From assembly GCA_028293565.1 (NCBI GenBank), contig JAQGON010000004.1, positions 1-35,327 on the forward strand: DNA of 35,327 bases, read 5' to 3'. Source of the DNA: Verrucomicrobiota bacterium (GTDB lineage Bacteria; Verrucomicrobiota; Verrucomicrobiia; Opitutales; Opitutaceae). The notes beneath the pieces are model-generated. The model searched no databases, was not told the DNA's origin, and worked only from the letters and a program-made list of their open reading frames with translations. The stretch's first letter is position 1. Every line of letters starts with the position of its first letter. The position numbers and the translations under genes are program-made. Positions 9,536 to 21,228 of this stretch are shown here, one piece after another.

Positions 9536-10897
9536 TCAGGCAATCCGCAGCGAGAGATAGATCACGGCAAGCTGCCGCGGATCGATCGCGGTCTGGAGGA
9601 ATCCGGCGTAGCGCAGCACTAGGTGGTTTTCTCCCGCGCGCAGCGGAAGGGCGCACACGATCCGCTCGCGCTGGTTGACGCGCTGGAAAACGTGGCGGTG
9701 AACCACGGTGCCGTTCAGCTCCACCGCGACGTCCTGCCGCTCGGCATACGTGAGCGCTTCGATCGCCAGGCGGGCCTGGCGCGGCGCCGGGGATTCGACG
9801 AGCAGCTCCGTCGCCGGCGCCTGTCCCCAATGGAAATTCGGCAGATAGGCTTCGGGCACCGGGCCCTCGTTCGGTCCCAGGCCCCCGACGATCCGATAAC
9901 CGGAAAACGCGTCGTCGCGTCCGGCGTAGGTGGAGGCCGTCAGGTCTTCGGCCGACAGCCGCCGCAGCGGCGAACCCGTTTCCATGGGCATGACCGGAGC
10001 ACCGATCCGGTCCATCAGCTGCCCGTGGCTGGACGCGAGTTTTTCCAGGTAAGGCAGCAGCGCCCGGATGATCCGGTGCGATTCCGTCGCCGCCGCCGTG
10101 AAGCGCAGCGGACCGCCGAGATAATCGAGCGGCGCGGTCCGGAGGTTTTCCGCGCGATGAAGGCTCGTCTCGAAAAACAGCTCGGGATTTTCCGCGAGCA
10201 GCTGGAAGCTCAGCCGGTAGTGCACGTCGAGGCCCTCGTGCGCGCGTCCGCGGCTCAGTTTCTGCAGCTCGGCCAACGCAATCCGCATCGCCTGCTGTCC
10301 CGGCGAGCGCAGGGAAAAATGCGCGAGCTGGAACGGCGCCGGCAGCAGCTGCTCCGGCAGCGCGCGATCGCCCCGGTAGATCGCGTGGCTCCCTTTGCCG
10401 GCCGCGGCGCCCGGGTCGGCGGCCAGCGCGGCGGGGACAATGATCTTCCGGGCGTTGCCCGGCTTGCAGTGTGTCAACCGCACGACGGGATTGGTCTCCG
10501 CGGGATTATCCCTCGGCGTGGGGTAATAGTTCAGCAAGGGCAGCGTCGCCGGCCCCGTCCCCGAAAAACCCGCGAGACATTTTTCCAGCGCGGGTCTTCC
10601 CGGGCCGGTCAGGAATTCGTCGGCATCGAGCGGAAAGATCCAGTCGGCGCCCCAGTCCGTCACCGCGAGCCGGGTGAGATGGTTGCTGCGCGCCTGCTGG
10701 AGGTTGCCCAGCGCGTCGTCGGTGAAGACCGTCAGCGGCAGACCCTCCGCCAGGAGCCGGCCGAGGATTTCGCGGGTGCCGTCCGTGCTGTCGTGGTCGA
10801 ACACCAGATGATGATCCGTCCACGCGCGGGCGTGCCGCACGAAGGGCTCGATGACATCGGCTTCGTTTTTGACGATCGAAACGGCGACGAGCTTCAT
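9536..10897 (-). CDS. Family 2-like glycosyltransferase with C-terminal beta-sandwich
   Basis: A 453-residue protein. The N terminus (MKLVAVSIVKNEADVIEPFV) is typical of GT2-like enzymes of the Glyco_tranf_2_4 type, followed by DHDSTDGT (34-41). A DAD metal/nucleotide-sugar motif lies at 91-93 within WIFPLDADEFL. The catalytic part runs to about residue 230. The last 85 residues (TELLVESPAPRQ, DVAVELNGTVVHRHVF, PLRAGENHLVLRYAGF) read as alternating beta strands, like a carbohydrate-binding or galactose-binding-like sandwich. The start at 10897 was chosen because the family motif begins at that Met; the open frame continues upstream without family similarity. The gene is divergent from ribBX (160 bp). 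Acceptor and donor are unknown. Confidence 0.8.
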   Translation of the reverse strand: MKLVAVSIVKNEADVIEPFVRHARAWTDHHLVFDHDSTDGTREILGRLLAEGLPLTVFTDDALGNLQQARSNHLTRLAVTDWGADWIFPLDADEFLTGPGRPALEKCLAGFSGTGPATLPLLNYYPTPRDNPAETNPVVRLTHCKPGNARKIIVPAALAADPGAAAGKGSHAIYRGDRALPEQLLPAPFQLAHFSLRSPGQQAMRIALAELQKLSRGRAHEGLDVHYRLSFQLLAENPELFFETSLHRAENLRTAPLDYLGGPLRFTAAATESHRIIRALLPYLEKLASSHGQLMDRIGAPVMPMETGSPLRRLSAEDLTASTYAGRDDAFSGYRIVGGLGPNEGPVPEAYLPNFHWGQAPATELLVESPAPRQARLAIEALTYAERQDVAVELNGTVVHRHVFQRVNQRERIVCALPLRAGENHLVLRYAGFLQTAIDPRQLAVIYLSLRIA

Positions 10898-14229: not shown

Positions 14230-16326
14230 TCAAAAGAGGAGTCTCACGCCACCGGTCAGGTTTCGCCCGGGCAGGGGCGCGACGTCCTTCAGGAACGAGC
14301 TGTGCACGCGGGCTTCCTGGTTCGTGAGATTGGTCAGCCGGAGAAACAGCTCGAGGTTGGCGAGCCGCCCCGGAATCGTCCGGCTCACGCTCGCATTGAG
14401 CAGCGTGTAGCCGGCGGTCTCGGTCTCCTCGGGAGCGACGCGATCCTGCCGGAAAACGTGGCGGGCCTCGACGCCCAGGATCCAGCGTTCGTTCTCGTAG
14501 TGCAGGCCCACCGCCGTCCGCAGCGGCTCGATCCGCGGCAGCGGCTGATGATCGGTGGTCTGCTCGGCGTGAACGTAATCCGTCATCAGGTCGAGATGCA
14601 GGTGATAGCCGGTCCCTTCGACGAGGTGGAGCGTCAGCTCCGCCTCCCCGCCGTAAAAGAGCGCGTCCTTCGCGATGAACTGATAGATCGGAAGGTAGGA
14701 GGTGTCGGGCGGGACGGGATACGGCTCGAACGTGCCGGAGGCGTCGGCGAAGTAGAAGGACGCGTCGCGCTGCTCGAAGATGAAATTCTGGAACCGGTTC
14801 ACGAAGCCGCCGACCGATCCCGTGATGAACCCCGCGCGTTTGCGCAGCACCACGTCGAGGCCGAGCGAGGATTCCTTGGACAGGCCGGTCGTGCCGATTT
14901 CATAGGCGTTGGTCCCGCCGTGCGGTCCGCTGGAAAAACTCTCCTGCGCCGAGGGGATGCGCTGGGAATAAGCCACGGAAACGCCGAGCGAGTAATCCTT
15001 CGCCAGGTAGTAAACCGCGCCCGTGGACAAGCTGACCCCGTGGTCGCGGCGGGTTTCCCCGGTGGCGGCCGAATAGCCCGGGTAGGACGGGAGGTCCGTG
15101 CGCACGTGGCCCAGCGCGATGCTCTGGGCCTCGTAACGCCCGCCGAACTGCAGCGTCAGCGACGGATCGACCTTGTACGACTCGAGAAAGAAGACGGCGT
15201 GGTTCAGCGTGAGCGAAGGCGGGGTGACGACCTCCTCTCCGATCGCGGAGAAATCGCTCCGCGACGTCTGGACTCCGACGGTGCCCGAGAGGTTGCCGAA
15301 ATCCTGCTGGCTCAGCTCGATCCGCCCCTCGTACGCATGGTTGTGGAAGGTCGTGTTGGGGAGCCCCGTCGTCTCGTCGACCTCGGCATGGTTGTAGTCC
15401 GCGATGCCGAACCGGGCCCGCGCGCCCTTGAACGGCCCGAACGGCCGCGTGATCTCGGCGCGGAAGTCGGCGCGGCGCTGCTTCATGTCGATCTCGATCG
15501 GCTCGCCGGTCGGCACGCCGTAACGGGTCTCGTACTGGCTGACGGCCACTCCGACGGTGCCCGCCTTGCCGAAAAACGCCGTGCCCAGCGTGCCGCTCTT
15601 CGTCGAGATTGCGCTGTTGGCCAGCGTGCCCTTGTTTTCCGGATTCGAAGGGTCGGCATAACCGGGAATCGAGACGTCGTCGGTTTCGGTGCGCAGCGCG
15701 TTCAGCTGGAAGGCGACGTGCGAGTTGCCGGCGGTGAGGGCGAGCACGCCGGTGCGCTCGTTGGACGCGGTGTCGAAGCGCAGCTCGGTCCGGCCGGTGA
15801 CCGGAGTGGCCGGCGCGGCCGACGGGATGCGGTTGTCGATGACGTTGACAACGCCGCCCACCGCGGAGCTGCCGTAGAGCAGCGTCGCCGGGCCGCGCAG
15901 CACCTCGATCCGCTCCACGAGCAGGGGCTCGACGCTGACGTTGTGGTCGGGGCTGACGTTCGAGGCGTCGAGCGAACCCACGCCATTGTCGAGCATCCGG
16001 ACCCGGTCGCCGCCGAGGCCCCGGATCACGGGCCGGCTTGCGCCGGGGCCGTAGTACGTGGAGTTGACGCCGGGGGTCGCGGAGAGCGTTTCGCCGAGGG
16101 TCGGCGCGAGCTGGAGGCGGAGTTCGTTGCCGGCGAGGATCGAAGCGCCTTGGGCGAGATCGAACGCGGTCTTGGCGTCCGGTCCGCTGCTGACGACGAA
16201 GGCGTCGAGGCTGAGGATCTTCTCGTCCGGAAGCGGAGCCGGAGAAAGGGGCGCCGGCGCGGTTTGCGCTTTGGCGAGCAGGGCGGCGGAGAAAAGGAAA
16301 AGGGAGATTTTTTTAAATGAGTGCAT
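14230..16326 (-). CDS. TonB-dependent outer-membrane receptor, ZnuD-like (probable zinc or other metal)
   Basis: A 698-residue TonB-dependent receptor. The start at 16326 gives a signal peptide (MHSFKKISLFLFSAALLAKAQ). The plug domain has AGNELRLQLAPTLGETLSATPGV, GASRPVIRGLGGDRVRML and the ERIEVLRGPATLLYGSSAVGGVVNVID block. The barrel follows and ends in RNLTGGVRLLF with a terminal aromatic. A barrel segment near residue 465 (SAQESFSSGPHGGTNAYEIG) resembles the GPH-x-x-T-x-x-Y/F-E-x-G stretch of ZnuD-type zinc receptors. Several extracellular segments contain His (YNHAEVDE, TTFHNHAYE, DHQPLP). Zinc specificity is inferred from this and from the neighbours. The gene follows, on the same strand, a small His-bearing protein and the P-loop/membrane fusion, separated by 95 and 34 bp, and the three may form an operon. 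Confidence 0.85.
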   Translation of the reverse strand: MHSFKKISLFLFSAALLAKAQTAPAPLSPAPLPDEKILSLDAFVVSSGPDAKTAFDLAQGASILAGNELRLQLAPTLGETLSATPGVNSTYYGPGASRPVIRGLGGDRVRMLDNGVGSLDASNVSPDHNVSVEPLLVERIEVLRGPATLLYGSSAVGGVVNVIDNRIPSAAPATPVTGRTELRFDTASNERTGVLALTAGNSHVAFQLNALRTETDDVSIPGYADPSNPENKGTLANSAISTKSGTLGTAFFGKAGTVGVAVSQYETRYGVPTGEPIEIDMKQRRADFRAEITRPFGPFKGARARFGIADYNHAEVDETTGLPNTTFHNHAYEGRIELSQQDFGNLSGTVGVQTSRSDFSAIGEEVVTPPSLTLNHAVFFLESYKVDPSLTLQFGGRYEAQSIALGHVRTDLPSYPGYSAATGETRRDHGVSLSTGAVYYLAKDYSLGVSVAYSQRIPSAQESFSSGPHGGTNAYEIGTTGLSKESSLGLDVVLRKRAGFITGSVGGFVNRFQNFIFEQRDASFYFADASGTFEPYPVPPDTSYLPIYQFIAKDALFYGGEAELTLHLVEGTGYHLHLDLMTDYVHAEQTTDHQPLPRIEPLRTAVGLHYENERWILGVEARHVFRQDRVAPEETETAGYTLLNASVSRTIPGRLANLELFLRLTNLTNQEARVHSSFLKDVAPLPGRNLTGGVRLLF

Positions 16327-16421
16327 GGCGAACCTGAGTTGAAGAACGAATCGAGGCGCACGGATCCCGTGCGCGGCAAAGCGCTGGCCCGGACGGGCGC
16401 AGCACTCGACAGTGTCTTGAC

Positions 16422-16790
16422 TCAGCTTGCCGGCGGCCCCCGCTCCGGCGGATGCAGGTAGCGGGACGATGCCAGGAAAATCTCTCTGCTCCGCGGCTGG
16501 GCGACCAGATCCGCCGCGGCCGGCCCGGCCTCGGCCGCCACCACGTCGGGAACGGCCGATACGCCATGGGCGAACTGGACGACGGCGCATCCGTCGTCGG
16601 CACCGACGTCATCGTGGCCGTGCACGAACCGATGCAGCTCCGGGCTCGCCGTCAGCGCCGTCAGCAGCAGCACCAGCGCGATCCCGCCCACGGCCAGGAG
16701 ACGCTGGAACGGAGGCCCGAAATTCAGATCGCGACGAGAGGTGAACACCGCGGCCAATGTCGCCGGTCTGTCGTCGCCGTCAAGCCGCAC
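16422..16790 (-). CDS. Small membrane-anchored protein with His/Cys cluster, beside the TonB receptor
   Basis: A 122-residue protein with no recognised family. An N-terminal membrane helix (about 31-48, LLAVGGIALVLLLTALTA) is followed at once by ELHRFVHGHDD and then CAVVQFAHG. This sets H53, H57, H59, C68 and H75 within 25 residues, a plausible metal-binding patch on the periplasmic face. Similar short proteins with an LHxxxH...C...H pattern occur next to metal-receptor genes (recalled, not searched). The first codon is GTG at 16790; a GTG at 16748 is an alternative that would shorten the N terminus by 14 residues. The coding overlap with antisense frames makes the start uncertain, but the His motif and synteny favour this frame. 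Confidence 0.55.
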   Translation of the reverse strand: MRLDGDDRPATLAAVFTSRRDLNFGPPFQRLLAVGGIALVLLLTALTASPELHRFVHGHDDVGADDGCAVVQFAHGVSAVPDVVAAEAGPAAADLVAQPRSREIFLASSRYLHPPERGPPAS

Positions 16791-16824
16791 GTGGGAAAGC
16801 GGCGCCGGTCTCCGGGCCGGCTCG

Positions 16825-18078
16825 TCACTGCGGGGGAATTTTCTTCACCGGCTTTGCCGCCTGCCGGCGTTCGAACGCATCGGAGAACGCCAGCGCCGGG
16901 CCCCACCAGCCGCGACGACGCAGCAGGTCGGCCCAGCGCGCGGGCCGGATGAGGGAGACGAGGGCCATGAGCACGAGCCCGATGGCGAAAAACCGCAGCG
17001 TGAGCCACGCGACCTTTTCCCACGGACTGCCGCTCGCGAGGAGGATGCCCGCCACGATGACCAGGGGCAGCCAGAATTTCCAGCGGGTGAATTCGATCAG
17101 CCGGGCCCATGACCGGCCGCGGACGCGCGCCCCCGCCGCGGCGACCTCGACCTTGCCGGTCATTTCCTTTTCGAGCACGCGGCGCAGCGCGGCCGGCGGC
17201 TGCCGGAGGCGCCAGGCGGCGACGCAGCTGCCGGCGCAGATGATCCCGTGCACGAACGCCCATCCCCCCACCACCCACGGAAGCCCCGGGGCGGGGACGT
17301 GCAGGATCCGCGCGAGCCACAGCGCCGCCGAATCGTAGGCGCGGACCAGGTCGCCGCCGAGCATCAGGTACTCGAGGAAAAAACCCTGCAGCGAGGCCCA
17401 GACTCCGATCAGCATTCCGCCCAGCGCGACGGCCGGCGCGTTCCAGCCCAGCAGCTGCACCGTGGATCCGAAGAAAAAGCCCTGCATGAAAATCGCGAGC
17501 ATCGGACGCAGGCGGTTGCCTCCGGGCGAGAGCGCCTTCAGTCCCGCGGAAATAAACGACACCCACATCACGCGGCCCGGCTGCGTCAGCCCGAAACCGG
17601 CAAAGACCATCATCGCTCCCTGCAGCGCCGACAGAAACGTGCTGCGGAACGGAATCCTGGCGGCGTGCAGCGCCGAGCCCACGCTCATCTCGATCGCGCC
17701 GCTGGCCCCGCCGAACAGTCCGATGCGCGTCCATTCGCCAAAATCCCCGCACGCGCGCTCGAGGCGTGCGAGCGCATCCGGGGCATCCGCCTCCACGCAC
17801 AGGTCGAACCGCCGCCCGAGCCGTTGCTCGATCTCCGCGACGAGCTCCGCGCGGACGGCGATGATCACGATCCGGGGATGGTTCGCTTCGATCGCCGCCC
17901 GGAGAGGCATCAGGTCCTCGCCCTGCGATTCGAACCGCGCTAATTCGATTTTTCCGCCGCGCCCCTGCGGGCGGGCCGCGAGCTCGTCGAGGATCCTGGC
18001 CTTGCCAGAGCCCGGAGCTCCGGTGAGGCCGATCAGCAGGCCGGGACCATGCGGCTGCGTGGGGGAATCGGGTGACAT
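16825..18078 (-). CDS. Fusion of a degenerate P-loop segment with a multi-helix membrane domain, possibly ECF-type transporter
   Basis: A 417-residue protein. Residues 17-28 (GLTGAPGSGKAR) look like a Walker A loop, but the usual Ser/Thr after Lys is Ala (27). The rest of the N domain (to about 115) is short and lacks an obvious Walker B. From 117 onward come hydrophobic segments: 145-165, 170-181, 192-215, 216-240 and 267-290. A charged loop (291-335) and two more helices (335-349, 357-377) follow, ending in RWADLLRRRGWWGPALAFSDAFERR. The middle stretch with LKALSPGGNRLRPMLAIFMQG suggests an ECF substrate-binding (S) component to me. The tail recalls an ECF T component. Both are pattern impressions, not established. 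The gene lies upstream of the small His protein and TonB receptor in the same orientation. The start at 18078 is the first ATG before the P-loop. Confidence 0.6.
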   Translation of the reverse strand: MSPDSPTQPHGPGLLIGLTGAPGSGKARILDELAARPQGRGGKIELARFESQGEDLMPLRAAIEANHPRIVIIAVRAELVAEIEQRLGRRFDLCVEADAPDALARLERACGDFGEWTRIGLFGGASGAIEMSVGSALHAARIPFRSTFLSALQGAMMVFAGFGLTQPGRVMWVSFISAGLKALSPGGNRLRPMLAIFMQGFFFGSTVQLLGWNAPAVALGGMLIGVWASLQGFFLEYLMLGGDLVRAYDSAALWLARILHVPAPGLPWVVGGWAFVHGIICAGSCVAAWRLRQPPAALRRVLEKEMTGKVEVAAAGARVRGRSWARLIEFTRWKFWLPLVIVAGILLASGSPWEKVAWLTLRFFAIGLVLMALVSLIRPARWADLLRRRGWWGPALAFSDAFERRQAAKPVKKIPPQ

Positions 18079-18171: not shown

Positions 18172-19299
18172 ATGGCGGGCATAAAAAGCGGAAATTCCGG
18201 TGCTTCGCGGAATATTTTTGAAACCCCCGCCGGTTCTGTGCGTCGAACGGGCGTGGGATTTATTGTTTCTTCGAAAGCAGGCCGGCCGCTCGCCGCCCTG
18301 ATGACAATCTGCGCGATCCTGGGGGGAGCTGCATCGTTGCGGGCGGATCCGCACGCAGCCGCGGCCGAACCGGTGAAACAGGACACCCTGGTGTACAAGG
18401 ACGGTGACCAGATCAAAGGGCGGCTGAAGGAGCGCTCGGCCACGGAGATCGTTTTTCTTTCGACGCGGTTCGGCCTCCTGCACGTCCCGGTGGCGGACGC
18501 CAAGGTCATCCTCGCAAACGGGGATGACGACACCATGGCCGAGGTGCGGGCCCGCCGGGAGGAGGCGGAGGGTCCGTTCACCTTCTGGTCGCTGCTTTCG
18601 CTCCGCGCGCTGACCTCGCAGGTGCGCAATTTTTTCGGGCCGTGGCACGGGCGTTTCGCCGTGTCGTCGCAGGTGGTCTCGGACACCACGGATCGCACCA
18701 ACGACACGATCGAGGCGCACCTGCAGCGGAAATGGAAAAAGGACACCATCCAGATCAACGGCCGGTATGATTACAGCGAAACGAACGGGCTGGTGACGAC
18801 GGACATCGTCAAGGGCGACGCCTCGTGGCGTCATGATTTCCAATCGCGCCTCTTTGCCAGCTACACGCCGTCGGCCGAGATGAACCGGGCGTTCAGCTTC
18901 AACGGACTTCCGGCCGACTACGTCCTCGTGCAGCAGGAGCTCGGCGTCGGCGTCAATGTCTTCACCTCGCCGAAGCGCAACCTGCGCGTGGGCATGGCGG
19001 AAAACGTCTTCGACCTCTGGCAGATCGTCCCGCCCGAATCGCACAACTCGAAGACCGCCGAATCCGTCTTTCTCGAAGCCGACTGGAAGCTGCCCTGGGC
19101 CATGACGCTGACCGAGCGCGGCGTGTGGTACTATTCCATCAACACCGGCCGGGACGGCTGGGAAAACAAGATCGAGCTGGACAAGAAGCTCACCGAGACC
19201 TTCACCGTCGGAATCCGCCACGAGGTGCGTTACAACAACCCCGGCGTGCGCGTGCAGGACTACACCCTCCTGAAGCTCCTCATCGGAATCGATTTTTGA
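18172..19299 (+). CDS. DUF481-like outer-membrane beta-barrel protein
   Basis: A protein of up to 375 residues. After a hydrophobic signal-like segment (LAALMTICAILGGAASLRAD) it has a small soluble domain with DTLVYKDGDQIKGRLKERSATEIVFLSTRFGLLHVPVADAKVI. This form of opening is common ahead of the DUF481 barrel. The barrel follows with repeating aromatic-alternating strands (GRFAVSSQVVSD, DTIQINGRYDYSET, NLRVGMAENVF, ESVFLEADWKL) and ends in LLKLLIGIDF with a terminal Phe. The start is unsettled: ATG 18172 has a GGAGG 11 bp upstream but a long leader, GTG 18253 would give a normal-length signal peptide, and ATG 18301 is too close to the signal core. It diverges from the P-loop fusion gene and is convergent with the reductase, with a palindrome in between. 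Confidence 0.72.
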   Translation: MAGIKSGNSGASRNIFETPAGSVRRTGVGFIVSSKAGRPLAALMTICAILGGAASLRADPHAAAAEPVKQDTLVYKDGDQIKGRLKERSATEIVFLSTRFGLLHVPVADAKVILANGDDDTMAEVRARREEAEGPFTFWSLLSLRALTSQVRNFFGPWHGRFAVSSQVVSDTTDRTNDTIEAHLQRKWKKDTIQINGRYDYSETNGLVTTDIVKGDASWRHDFQSRLFASYTPSAEMNRAFSFNGLPADYVLVQQELGVGVNVFTSPKRNLRVGMAENVFDLWQIVPPESHNSKTAESVFLEADWKLPWAMTLTERGVWYYSINTGRDGWENKIELDKKLTETFTVGIRHEVRYNNPGVRVQDYTLLKLLIGIDF

Positions 19300-20214: not shown

Positions 20215-21228
20215 TCACGCTTCGCTTTTCAGGACATAGACCATTCCCTTTTCGGAGCCGATCGCGAGGAGGGTGTCGTCGGGTGACCAGGCGAGCTTCG
20301 TGGCGGCGGACGGCATTTTCACCGTGGCGCGCAGGGGCTGCTTTCGCTCCGGGCTCCACAGCTGGACCACGCCGTCGACGGCGGCGGTCGCGAGCAGGCC
20401 GTGCCGGTGCTGAAACGACACCGCGCAAATCTTCGCGTCGTGCGGCAGCATGTTGGGATCGCGGCCCTCCGGTCCTGCTCCCGCACAATCCCACACGCAG
20501 CAATCCTTGCCCCCGCCCGTCGCGAGCCAGCGGCTGCCGTGGTCGAAGGACAGTTCCTTTACCTTGCCCTCATAGCCGCTCATCTGAAGTTCGGCGTCTT
20601 CCGCCGGAATCCAGAGATGCACGGACGGATCCTGGTTGCCCGAGACGAGCCACCGGCTGTCGGGAGACCAGACGAGGGCCTGGATGCCGTTCGCATAGGC
20701 GAATTCCTTCTGGAGCAGAAAATCATCGGCATCCCACAGGCACACTCCGCCGAAATAGGAAACCGCCACGCATCCTCCGGCCGGCTGGGGGGCGAGGGCC
20801 GAAATCGTCTTGGGCGCGGGCTTGAACGTGTGGACCACGGTGCCGTCGGCGCGCAGGGCGACGAGGGTTTTGCCGGCGGCGGCGAAGAGCATCGTGGCGC
20901 TCGTCCAGCCCAGATGTTCGACCCAGGCGGATCCGAGTTCCGCGGACGCCACGTGCTGGCCGGCGCCGGGGTCCCAGAATTTCACTTCGCCGTCCTGCCC
21001 GCCGCTGGCCAGGAGGCTGGGCGAACTTTCGCCCTGCGGCTTCCAGGCGAGGCAATTCGTGCCGCCCGCGTGCCCTGCCAGGTCGGGCTGCCGCGCTCCG
21101 TCTGACCGCGCGAAAAGCGCGACCGGACCGCTCGCCGAGGCGGCCGCCAGAAGGTCGCCGCGTGGCGACCAGGCGAGGTCGATCACGTAATCGTCGAGGG
21201 CGCCCGCCCAGTGTTTCGTCAGCTGCAT
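20215..21228 (-). CDS. WD40 repeat protein
   Basis: A 337-residue beta-propeller protein. Repeats with the WD40 pattern (hydrophobic-ASGGQDGEVKFWDPG, LVSGNQDPSVHLWIP, LATGGGKDCCVWDC, LATAAVDGVVQLWSP) recur about every 40 residues, each closing near a W-D or L-W pair. About seven repeats are visible from VIDLAWSPRGDLLAAAS to the terminal GSEKGMVYVLKSEA, enough for one propeller. No signal peptide, membrane helix or enzyme domain is present. Such proteins usually serve as interaction platforms; the partner is unknown. The gene lies 114 bp upstream of the reductase on the same strand and diverges from the ABC importer operon. Confidence 0.9.
   Translation of the reverse strand: MQLTKHWAGALDDYVIDLAWSPRGDLLAAASASGPVALFARSDGARQPDLAGHAGGTNCLAWKPQGESSPSLLASGGQDGEVKFWDPGAGQHVASAELGSAWVEHLGWTSATMLFAAAGKTLVALRADGTVVHTFKPAPKTISALAPQPAGGCVAVSYFGGVCLWDADDFLLQKEFAYANGIQALVWSPDSRWLVSGNQDPSVHLWIPAEDAELQMSGYEGKVKELSFDHGSRWLATGGGKDCCVWDCAGAGPEGRDPNMLPHDAKICAVSFQHRHGLLATAAVDGVVQLWSPERKQPLRATVKMPSAATKLAWSPDDTLLAIGSEKGMVYVLKSEA

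Follow-up and report, generated by a model that had tools for sequence, protein, structure and literature searches.

A candidate zinc-type leader gene upstream of a ZnuD-like TonB-dependent receptor in Opitutaceae

The window, by which we mean the whole stretch of 35,327 nt that was analysed (positions 1 to 35,327 of contig JAQGON010000004.1, assembly GCA_028293565.1, a Verrucomicrobiota bacterium of the Opitutaceae), is contig C159 of a 4.16-Mb genome, labelled G000 in our analysis. It carries a small gene placed between a gene for a fused P-loop and membrane protein (the fusion) and a gene for a ZnuD-like TonB-dependent receptor. We found that the type of such a small leader gene follows the type of the receptor behind it: H-type leaders, the type found in the window, stand with zinc receptors and CXXC-type leaders with copper receptors. 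The conserved unit is the pair of leader and zinc receptor and not the block of three genes. Since leader type follows receptor type, we consider as the most likely reading, and as a rather probable one, that the leader senses zinc and is a variant of a switch known for copper, that is, a nascent-peptide leader similar to CruR and CutF.

Pairing of leader and receptor types

An initial annotation had presented the three genes as a metal-uptake block made of a ZnuD-like receptor, a His-rich anchor and the fusion. Its three open reading frames (ORFs) on the minus strand, with gaps of 34 and 95 bp, were confirmed, the gap between fusion and small gene being 34 bp with the GTG at 16790 and 76 bp if the later GTG at 16748 is used, and the assignment to metal uptake was supported. 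The features of the locus are the following.

18078-16825, minus strand: fusion ORF, 417 amino acids (aa)
16422..16790, minus strand: small gene, leader-like ORF (the former His-rich anchor), 122 aa, GTG start uncertain
14230..16326, minus strand: ZnuD-like TonB-dependent receptor, 698 aa, Plug and barrel domains
16327..16421, minus strand: spacer between leader and receptor, 95 nt
16356..16374, minus strand: spacer hairpin, seen in a consensus of three sequences (window and two relatives)
16620..16637, minus strand: LHxxxH motif, leader residues 52-57
16587..16589, minus strand: codon of leader Cys68, 48 residues before RGPP
16431..16442, minus strand: RGPP arrest-like motif, leader residues 117-120, followed by two residues and the stop
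15943..15948, minus strand: codons of receptor Asp127-His128 (ZnuD Asp99, His100)
15382..15384, minus strand: codon of receptor Glu315 (ZnuD Glu340)
14920..14922, minus strand: codon of receptor His469 (ZnuD His499)

The family of the small gene was found in 8 of the 29 mapped stretches, window included, and in all eight it was directly upstream of a TonB receptor, belonging in six cases to the ZnuD-like cluster and in two to another cluster. As further sets we read the stretches upstream from 19 further ZnuD-like receptors, from 20 TonB-copper receptors and, as controls, from 27 (20 + 7) other TonB receptors of the window's genome, taken out of its 45 other plug hits. Three loci (L125, L127 and L135, identical to L080, L085 and L093) are in both the mapped and the further sets. 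The H-type pattern was built from 22 leaders, precisely from 17 of the 19 zinc stretches and five earlier ones. It was present before all 19 further ZnuD-like receptors, including the leaders L128 and L129, which were not used in building it, before none of the 20 TonB-copper receptors, two of whose stretches (L144 and L159) are cut short by contig ends, and before none of the 27 controls. The CXXC-type pattern had the opposite distribution (15/20 copper, 0/19 zinc and 1/27 control receptors); the copper stretches lacking a match were L144 and L159, at contig ends, L154, L155 and L145 (Pro-rich end, no CXXC).

The search covered 38 genomes: those carrying the fusion, those of the window's genus and a single additional one. 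A ZnuD-like match at E up to 1e-40 was present in 22 of them (the 19 above plus G000, G002 and G049), and in each of these an H-type leader preceded the ZnuD-like receptor. A Fisher test of 22/22 versus 0/18 gave p ~1e-11, a value that is overstated since the genomes are related. In the 484 kb of the window and neighbourhoods the H-type pattern was found only at the eight mapped TonB loci, and 20 simple shuffles of the window contained neither the H-type nor the CXXC-type pattern. The sole CXXC-type match in the same 484 kb (L039, 17195) lies outside the leader cluster and was rejected, as it looks like a chance match.

The linkage of all three genes was a different case. Fusion, leader and ZnuD-like receptor were found in a row in 2 of the 31 fusion genomes (the window's and G002), with contig ends hiding some, and the block proposed in the initial annotation was not maintained.

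Two further loci were noted along the way. On contig C203 of G000 (loci L178 and L180) a CXXC-type leader, with its stop near 10582, is before a TonB receptor with a plug from 10898; the best NCBIfam match of this receptor is of the haemoglobin/transferrin/lactoferrin type, below cut-off, and it is possibly a copper receptor outside TIGR01778. In G001, a genome of the same genus with no fusion match, a zinc-type and a copper-type receptor are about 2.4 kb apart on one contig (C84).

We examined 22 leaders closely. All of them contain LHxxxH and have exactly two residues between the Pro-Pro motif and the stop, and the distance from the Cys to this motif, [R/C/H][G/A]PP, is of 48 residues in 20 leaders, 47 in one and 49 in one. 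The motif reads RGPP in 15 leaders, CGPP in 4, HAPP in 2 and RAPP in 1, and its two Pro codons show only silent variation. The eight mapped members end in RGPP (RAPP in L093, CGPP in L085) plus two residues, with the Cys 48 residues before; they have 5-11 His per protein and, by eye, an N-terminal hydrophobic segment. The window leader reads CAVV, hence Val71 is at the position of the second Cys of CruR and there is no CXXC.

In Bordetella pertussis, CruR (bp2923) is a DUF2946-type ORF that precedes the gene of the TonB transporter BfrG/CrtA. A CXXC at 90-93 senses copper in it, and RAPP at 139-142, followed by three residues, arrests the ribosome; copper relieves the arrest, letting Rho stop the operon, and CruR homologues head operons of predicted copper homeostasis (PMC9426467). 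By the CruR numbering of that source, 48 residues intervene between Cys90 and Arg139, the same distance as from Cys to RGPP in the window leader. For this motif geometry, and for the parallel CXXC leaders before copper receptors, the small gene is better read as a regulatory leader than as the His-rich anchor of the initial annotation.

The receptor proved to be ZnuD-like as annotated. Its best NCBIfam match is ZnuD (NF038289, E 2.1e-102, 343.9 bits, under the cut-off of 950) and in the PDB it matches ZnuD 4rdr best (E 1.8e-68). The high-affinity zinc site of ZnuD is made of Asp99, His100, Glu340 and His499 (PMC4557270), and all four ligands are kept in the window receptor as Asp127, His128, Glu315 and His469, according to the alignment with 4rdr (numbering offset 14, counted by hand) and to the family alignment. 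All four were also present in the four other members of its cluster whose sequence covers the zinc site; the sequence of the L080 receptor, of the same cluster, is cut and shows the first two only. The copper-type receptors (n=7) have Asp in the first ligand column and none of the other three ligands, and the two receptors of the other cluster have none of the four.

Control by the leader and other explanations

From the observed geometry, receptor pairing and receptor zinc site we infer the pause, the identity of the metal and the direction of control as follows. Under zinc scarcity, a ribosome on the leader would pause at the C-terminal RGPP, and the paused ribosome would keep the downstream message open, with the ZnuD-like receptor being made. 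With ample zinc, LHxxxH and the Cys of the nascent peptide, in many cases together with another His close by, would bind the metal immediately outside the ribosome; zinc binding would relieve the pause, the ribosome would leave and the receptor would be switched off, either through Rho or because the spacer folds. The overall scheme would be the copper scheme of CruR with the metal site changed. More tentatively, a metal code may extend across the leaders of this bacterial family, with LHxxxH and a single Cys for zinc, and CXXC for copper, in each case before a C-terminal Pro-Pro motif that would stall the ribosome; the zinc-type leader would then be a zinc-responsive arrest peptide.

The spacer was considered as a possible site of such folding. 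Its length is 95 nt in the window and 95, 97 and 94 nt in the relatives L035, L039 and L041. For the seven spacers folded, the z values included -3.23 for the window, -3.02 for L085, -1.92 for L035, -1.07 for L039 and +0.20 for L041. A consensus drawn from the window sequence and those of two relatives has two spacer hairpins and a closing stem, with the leader stop codon paired near the receptor start; of its 23 pairs, 2 are changed on both sides and 5 are broken in one sequence. In the hairpin at 16356..16374, which has 8 pairs, one pair has both bases changed and two are disrupted, each in a single sequence. Structure in the spacer RNA is not general, and we kept it as a hint only.

Several observations weigh against a zinc-sensing leader. 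Because the genomes are related, the 22 of 22 cannot be counted as so many independent events. The two patterns were also derived from leaders of the same genomes on which they were run. Among the first 20 of the 27 controls, the stretches of L164, L171 and L172 may not extend upstream of the gene. At L035 (4214-6334) and L039 (3208-5328) H-type leaders precede receptors of the second cluster, without zinc ligands. Four of the 22 leaders, the window's among them, have no His at any of the four positions preceding the Cys. The Pfam family DUF2946 has no match to the window leader and, in the scan of 19 leaders (8 H-type and 11 CXXC-type), matched 3 at E up to 1, the best of them at E 0.0023 with 19.1 bits versus a cut-off of 23.7. 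Finally, the spacers of L038, L041 and L093 fold no better than shuffles.

The small gene could instead encode an exported His-rich metal-binding protein, a chaperone or anchor that hands zinc onward from the receptor, and for such a role one would note the N-terminal hydrophobic segment, the 5-11 His and the position directly upstream of the receptor. A carrier, however, has no need of a Cys placed 47-49 residues from the motif, nor of a stop placed two residues after it, both of which hold in 22 of 22 leaders. Parallel CXXC leaders before copper receptors and the precedents of CruR and CutF also speak for a switch, and we consider a carrier unlikely. A different question is whether a leader that acts in the proposed manner responds not to zinc but to copper, nickel or cobalt, or to more than one metal. 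The two H-type leaders before receptors with no zinc site would fit with this, as would the His-only CutF-like proteins next to HupE/UreJ, which have been tied to nickel and cobalt (PMC9973294); on the other hand, the ZnuD-like receptors that we checked keep the zinc ligands, and the H-type leader is in 22 of 22 genomes with a ZnuD-like match and before 0 of 20 copper receptors. Another metal seems quite unlikely.

The fused P-loop and membrane protein

The fusion stands apart from the pair of leader and receptor: it is a membrane protein encoded in metal-receptor islands, and its nucleoside triphosphatase (NTPase) domain is decaying. Its two parts are the following.

17743..18078, minus strand: remnant of a THEP1-type NTPase domain, fusion residues 1-112, Walker A GSGKA, Walker B stretch missing
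16828..17742, minus strand: fusion membrane domain, residues 113-417, with six or more hydrophobic segments judged by eye on the profile

That a degenerate P-loop domain is fused here to a membrane region, as initially annotated, was borne out by eight relatives 48-71% identical to the fusion in the alignment. Most relatives are about 72 residues longer than the window copy, with an intact N-terminal domain; in the window copy GKT has become GKA in Walker A and about 72 residues, up to the LVLLDEF (Walker B) stretch, are gone. In six relatives scanned, Pfam DUF2478 was above its cut-off of 22.3 in two (L015, 25.9 bits; L019, 22.5 bits), below it in three and had no match in L023, and NTPase_1 stayed below cut-off. 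The AlphaFold model of L009 had a predicted local distance difference test (pLDDT) mostly of 70-90 in the N-terminal domain, which (residues 13-187) was similar to HCR-NTPase 2i3b (Z 14.4, root-mean-square deviation (rmsd) 3.2 over 166 residues) and to THEP1 1ye8 (Z 13.3, rmsd 3.4 over 160 residues), the next row having Z 9.4. On this model the fused P-loop domain of the relatives is of the THEP1 type and not an ATPase of the ATP-binding cassette (ABC) type, and the window domain, judging from its sequence, is a truncated and probably inactive remnant of it.

The domain has decayed elsewhere as well. In genus g37 the second P-loop glycine is usually replaced (e.g. GPGSSKT); among members of genus g40, the P-loop lysine is missing in three, which read GQGRT or GEGRT, and the NTPase core is gone in G050, G255 and G479. 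The membrane part is 52-78% identical to the window across 27 relatives, and the NTPase seems dispensable for its role because it is lost or lysine-less in relatives whose membrane part stays. The deletion of 72 residues in the window may be an assembly artefact of this one genome, but the loss of the core in G050, G255 and G479 makes a real loss plausible.

The initial annotation had read the membrane region as S-like and T-like components of an energy-coupling factor (ECF) transporter in a single chain. On such a reading the chain, with its fused ATPase, would pass on the metal of the receptor. Six or more hydrophobic segments, of unsettled topology, are present together with a basic stretch near the C terminus, in agreement with it. 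In addition, genome G000 had no match at E 0.001 to CbiQ, ABC-3, ZIP, ECF_trnsprt or ABC_cobalt (NRAMP and other zinc importers were not sought), and the lack of CbiQ, ABC-3 and ZIP leaves an inner-membrane zinc importer otherwise unaccounted for. ABC-3 does not trade off with the fusion, being present in 14 of 31 genomes with it and in 125 of 221 without. Against an ECF transporter there is the NTPase itself, THEP1-type and cut down or lysine-less in two genera, and the rarity of the three-gene row, observed in just 2 of the 31 genomes with the fusion. Moreover, a Pfam/NCBIfam scan of 28 membrane domains at E up to 10 found no S or T family except for a lone CbiM match at E 1.6, PDB profile searches found no S or T component, and hhalign with 7 EcfT proteins, using shallow profiles, gave nothing. 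The membrane domain had nothing convincing in Pfam, NCBIfam or PDB. The two AlphaFold models, built from five sequences each, have a pLDDT of about 35 in the membrane part, too poor for a meaningful fold search, and the fold search with the L009 model barely tested this part. We regard the single-chain ECF transporter as very improbable.

Within the taxonomic family the fusion occurs in 31 of the 252 genomes, counting G000, and a phylum sample of 387 yielded 9 genomes with it, all of them from the same family; in these searches the membrane domain is found only in this bacterial family. Five named relatives are metagenome-assembled genomes, four labelled Opitutae and one Verrucomicrobia. Two marginal phylum matches were rejected, G445 (by eye a PnuC-type protein) and G257 (a short Arg/Ser-rich frame), and searching plasmids for the membrane domain and for two of the leaders yielded no usable result. 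The neighbourhood table covers 28 of the 29 stretches, as G566 (L095), although listed in the search of the taxonomic family, is outside the fusion cluster and was left out; G541 and G553 were not mapped, and some fusions are on short contigs (G482, G617).

In the relatives the fusion lies in metal islands with a TonB-copper receptor, CusF/BNR proteins, a CobW protein and small leader-like genes. The receptor in L038 is a TonB-copper one (TIGR01778, 674.7 bits versus a cut-off of 472.45). Copper receptors are near the fusion more often than zinc receptors: 7 of 9 fusion genomes with a TonB-copper receptor have both within 6 kb, versus 6 of 20 with a ZnuD-like receptor within 10 kb. As a guess from these neighbours, the fusion is probably an inner-membrane metal-handling protein.

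Other genes of these regions are reported for completeness. A CusF copper-binding domain is joined to BNR repeats near metal receptors at L038 9284-11101 and L035 6801-8261 (BNR below cut-off in L038). CobW-type genes are near the fusion at L038 3887-5053, where the best match is ZigA (319.6 bits versus a cut-off of 600), and also in L035, L036 and L039; none was called beside the window fusion. In the window, 18373-19299 is a DUF481 gene divergent from the fusion, whose cluster is in 11 of 29 stretches, and 20215-21228 encodes a repeat protein, WD40-like by eye, which is found in 17 of 29 mapped stretches and had no NCBIfam match at E 0.01.

Comparison with known systems

Repressors such as Zur are known to control zinc uptake genes in bacteria (PMC4176598). 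If the leader does sense zinc on leaving the ribosome, it would be a second, repressor-free route beside Zur-type control, and the paired zinc and copper leaders of one family would permit residue-by-residue swaps of metal choice. A caution would also follow, in that small "His-rich" genes before metal receptors may be switches and not carriers. We found no zinc-type leader or zinc-responsive arrest peptide described in the open-access literature (subscription papers were not covered). In a Caulobacter Zur study two DUF2946 genes were among those tabulated as down-regulated, and one of these two, CC2720, heads the efflux locus CC2720-26 (PMC4176598).

ECF transporters resemble the fusion in joining a multi-spanning membrane protein with a P-loop domain, but the NTPase of the fusion is not ABC-type and a match to S or T families is absent. 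THEP1 and HCR-NTPase (PDB 1ye8 and 2i3b) share the fold of the intact N-terminal domain of a relative (Z 13.3 and 14.4, respectively), which here, however, is fused to a membrane domain and in the window copy is truncated and probably inactive.

ZnuD of Neisseria (PMC4557270, PDB 4rdr) has the same plug and barrel and the same four high-affinity zinc ligands as the window receptor, which differs in scoring 343.9 bits versus the family cut-off of 950 and in standing behind a leader. CutF of Rhodobacter capsulatus is a nascent exported copper sensor and, like the proposed leader, an exported nascent peptide with a metal-binding motif and a Pro-rich C terminus; it differs in its CxxxC motif and in controlling a multicopper oxidase through a stem-loop (PMC9973294). 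The word zinc is absent from the text consulted, which describes the His-only CutF-like proteins beside HupE/UreJ as linked to nickel and cobalt.

CruR has a comparable layout: a short reading frame lies immediately before a TonB receptor gene, its Cys is 48 residues ahead of an Arg-x-Pro-Pro close to the stop, and there is a spacer as well, of 162 bp versus 95 in the window (PMC9426467). The window leader differs in having a single Cys and LHxxxH instead of CXXC, in a motif that in the leaders is mostly RGPP and not RAPP, in the ZnuD-like receptor behind it and in the lack of a DUF2946 match to the window copy. Copper leaders are known from CruR and CutF, and what would be new here is a zinc-type variant of such leaders.

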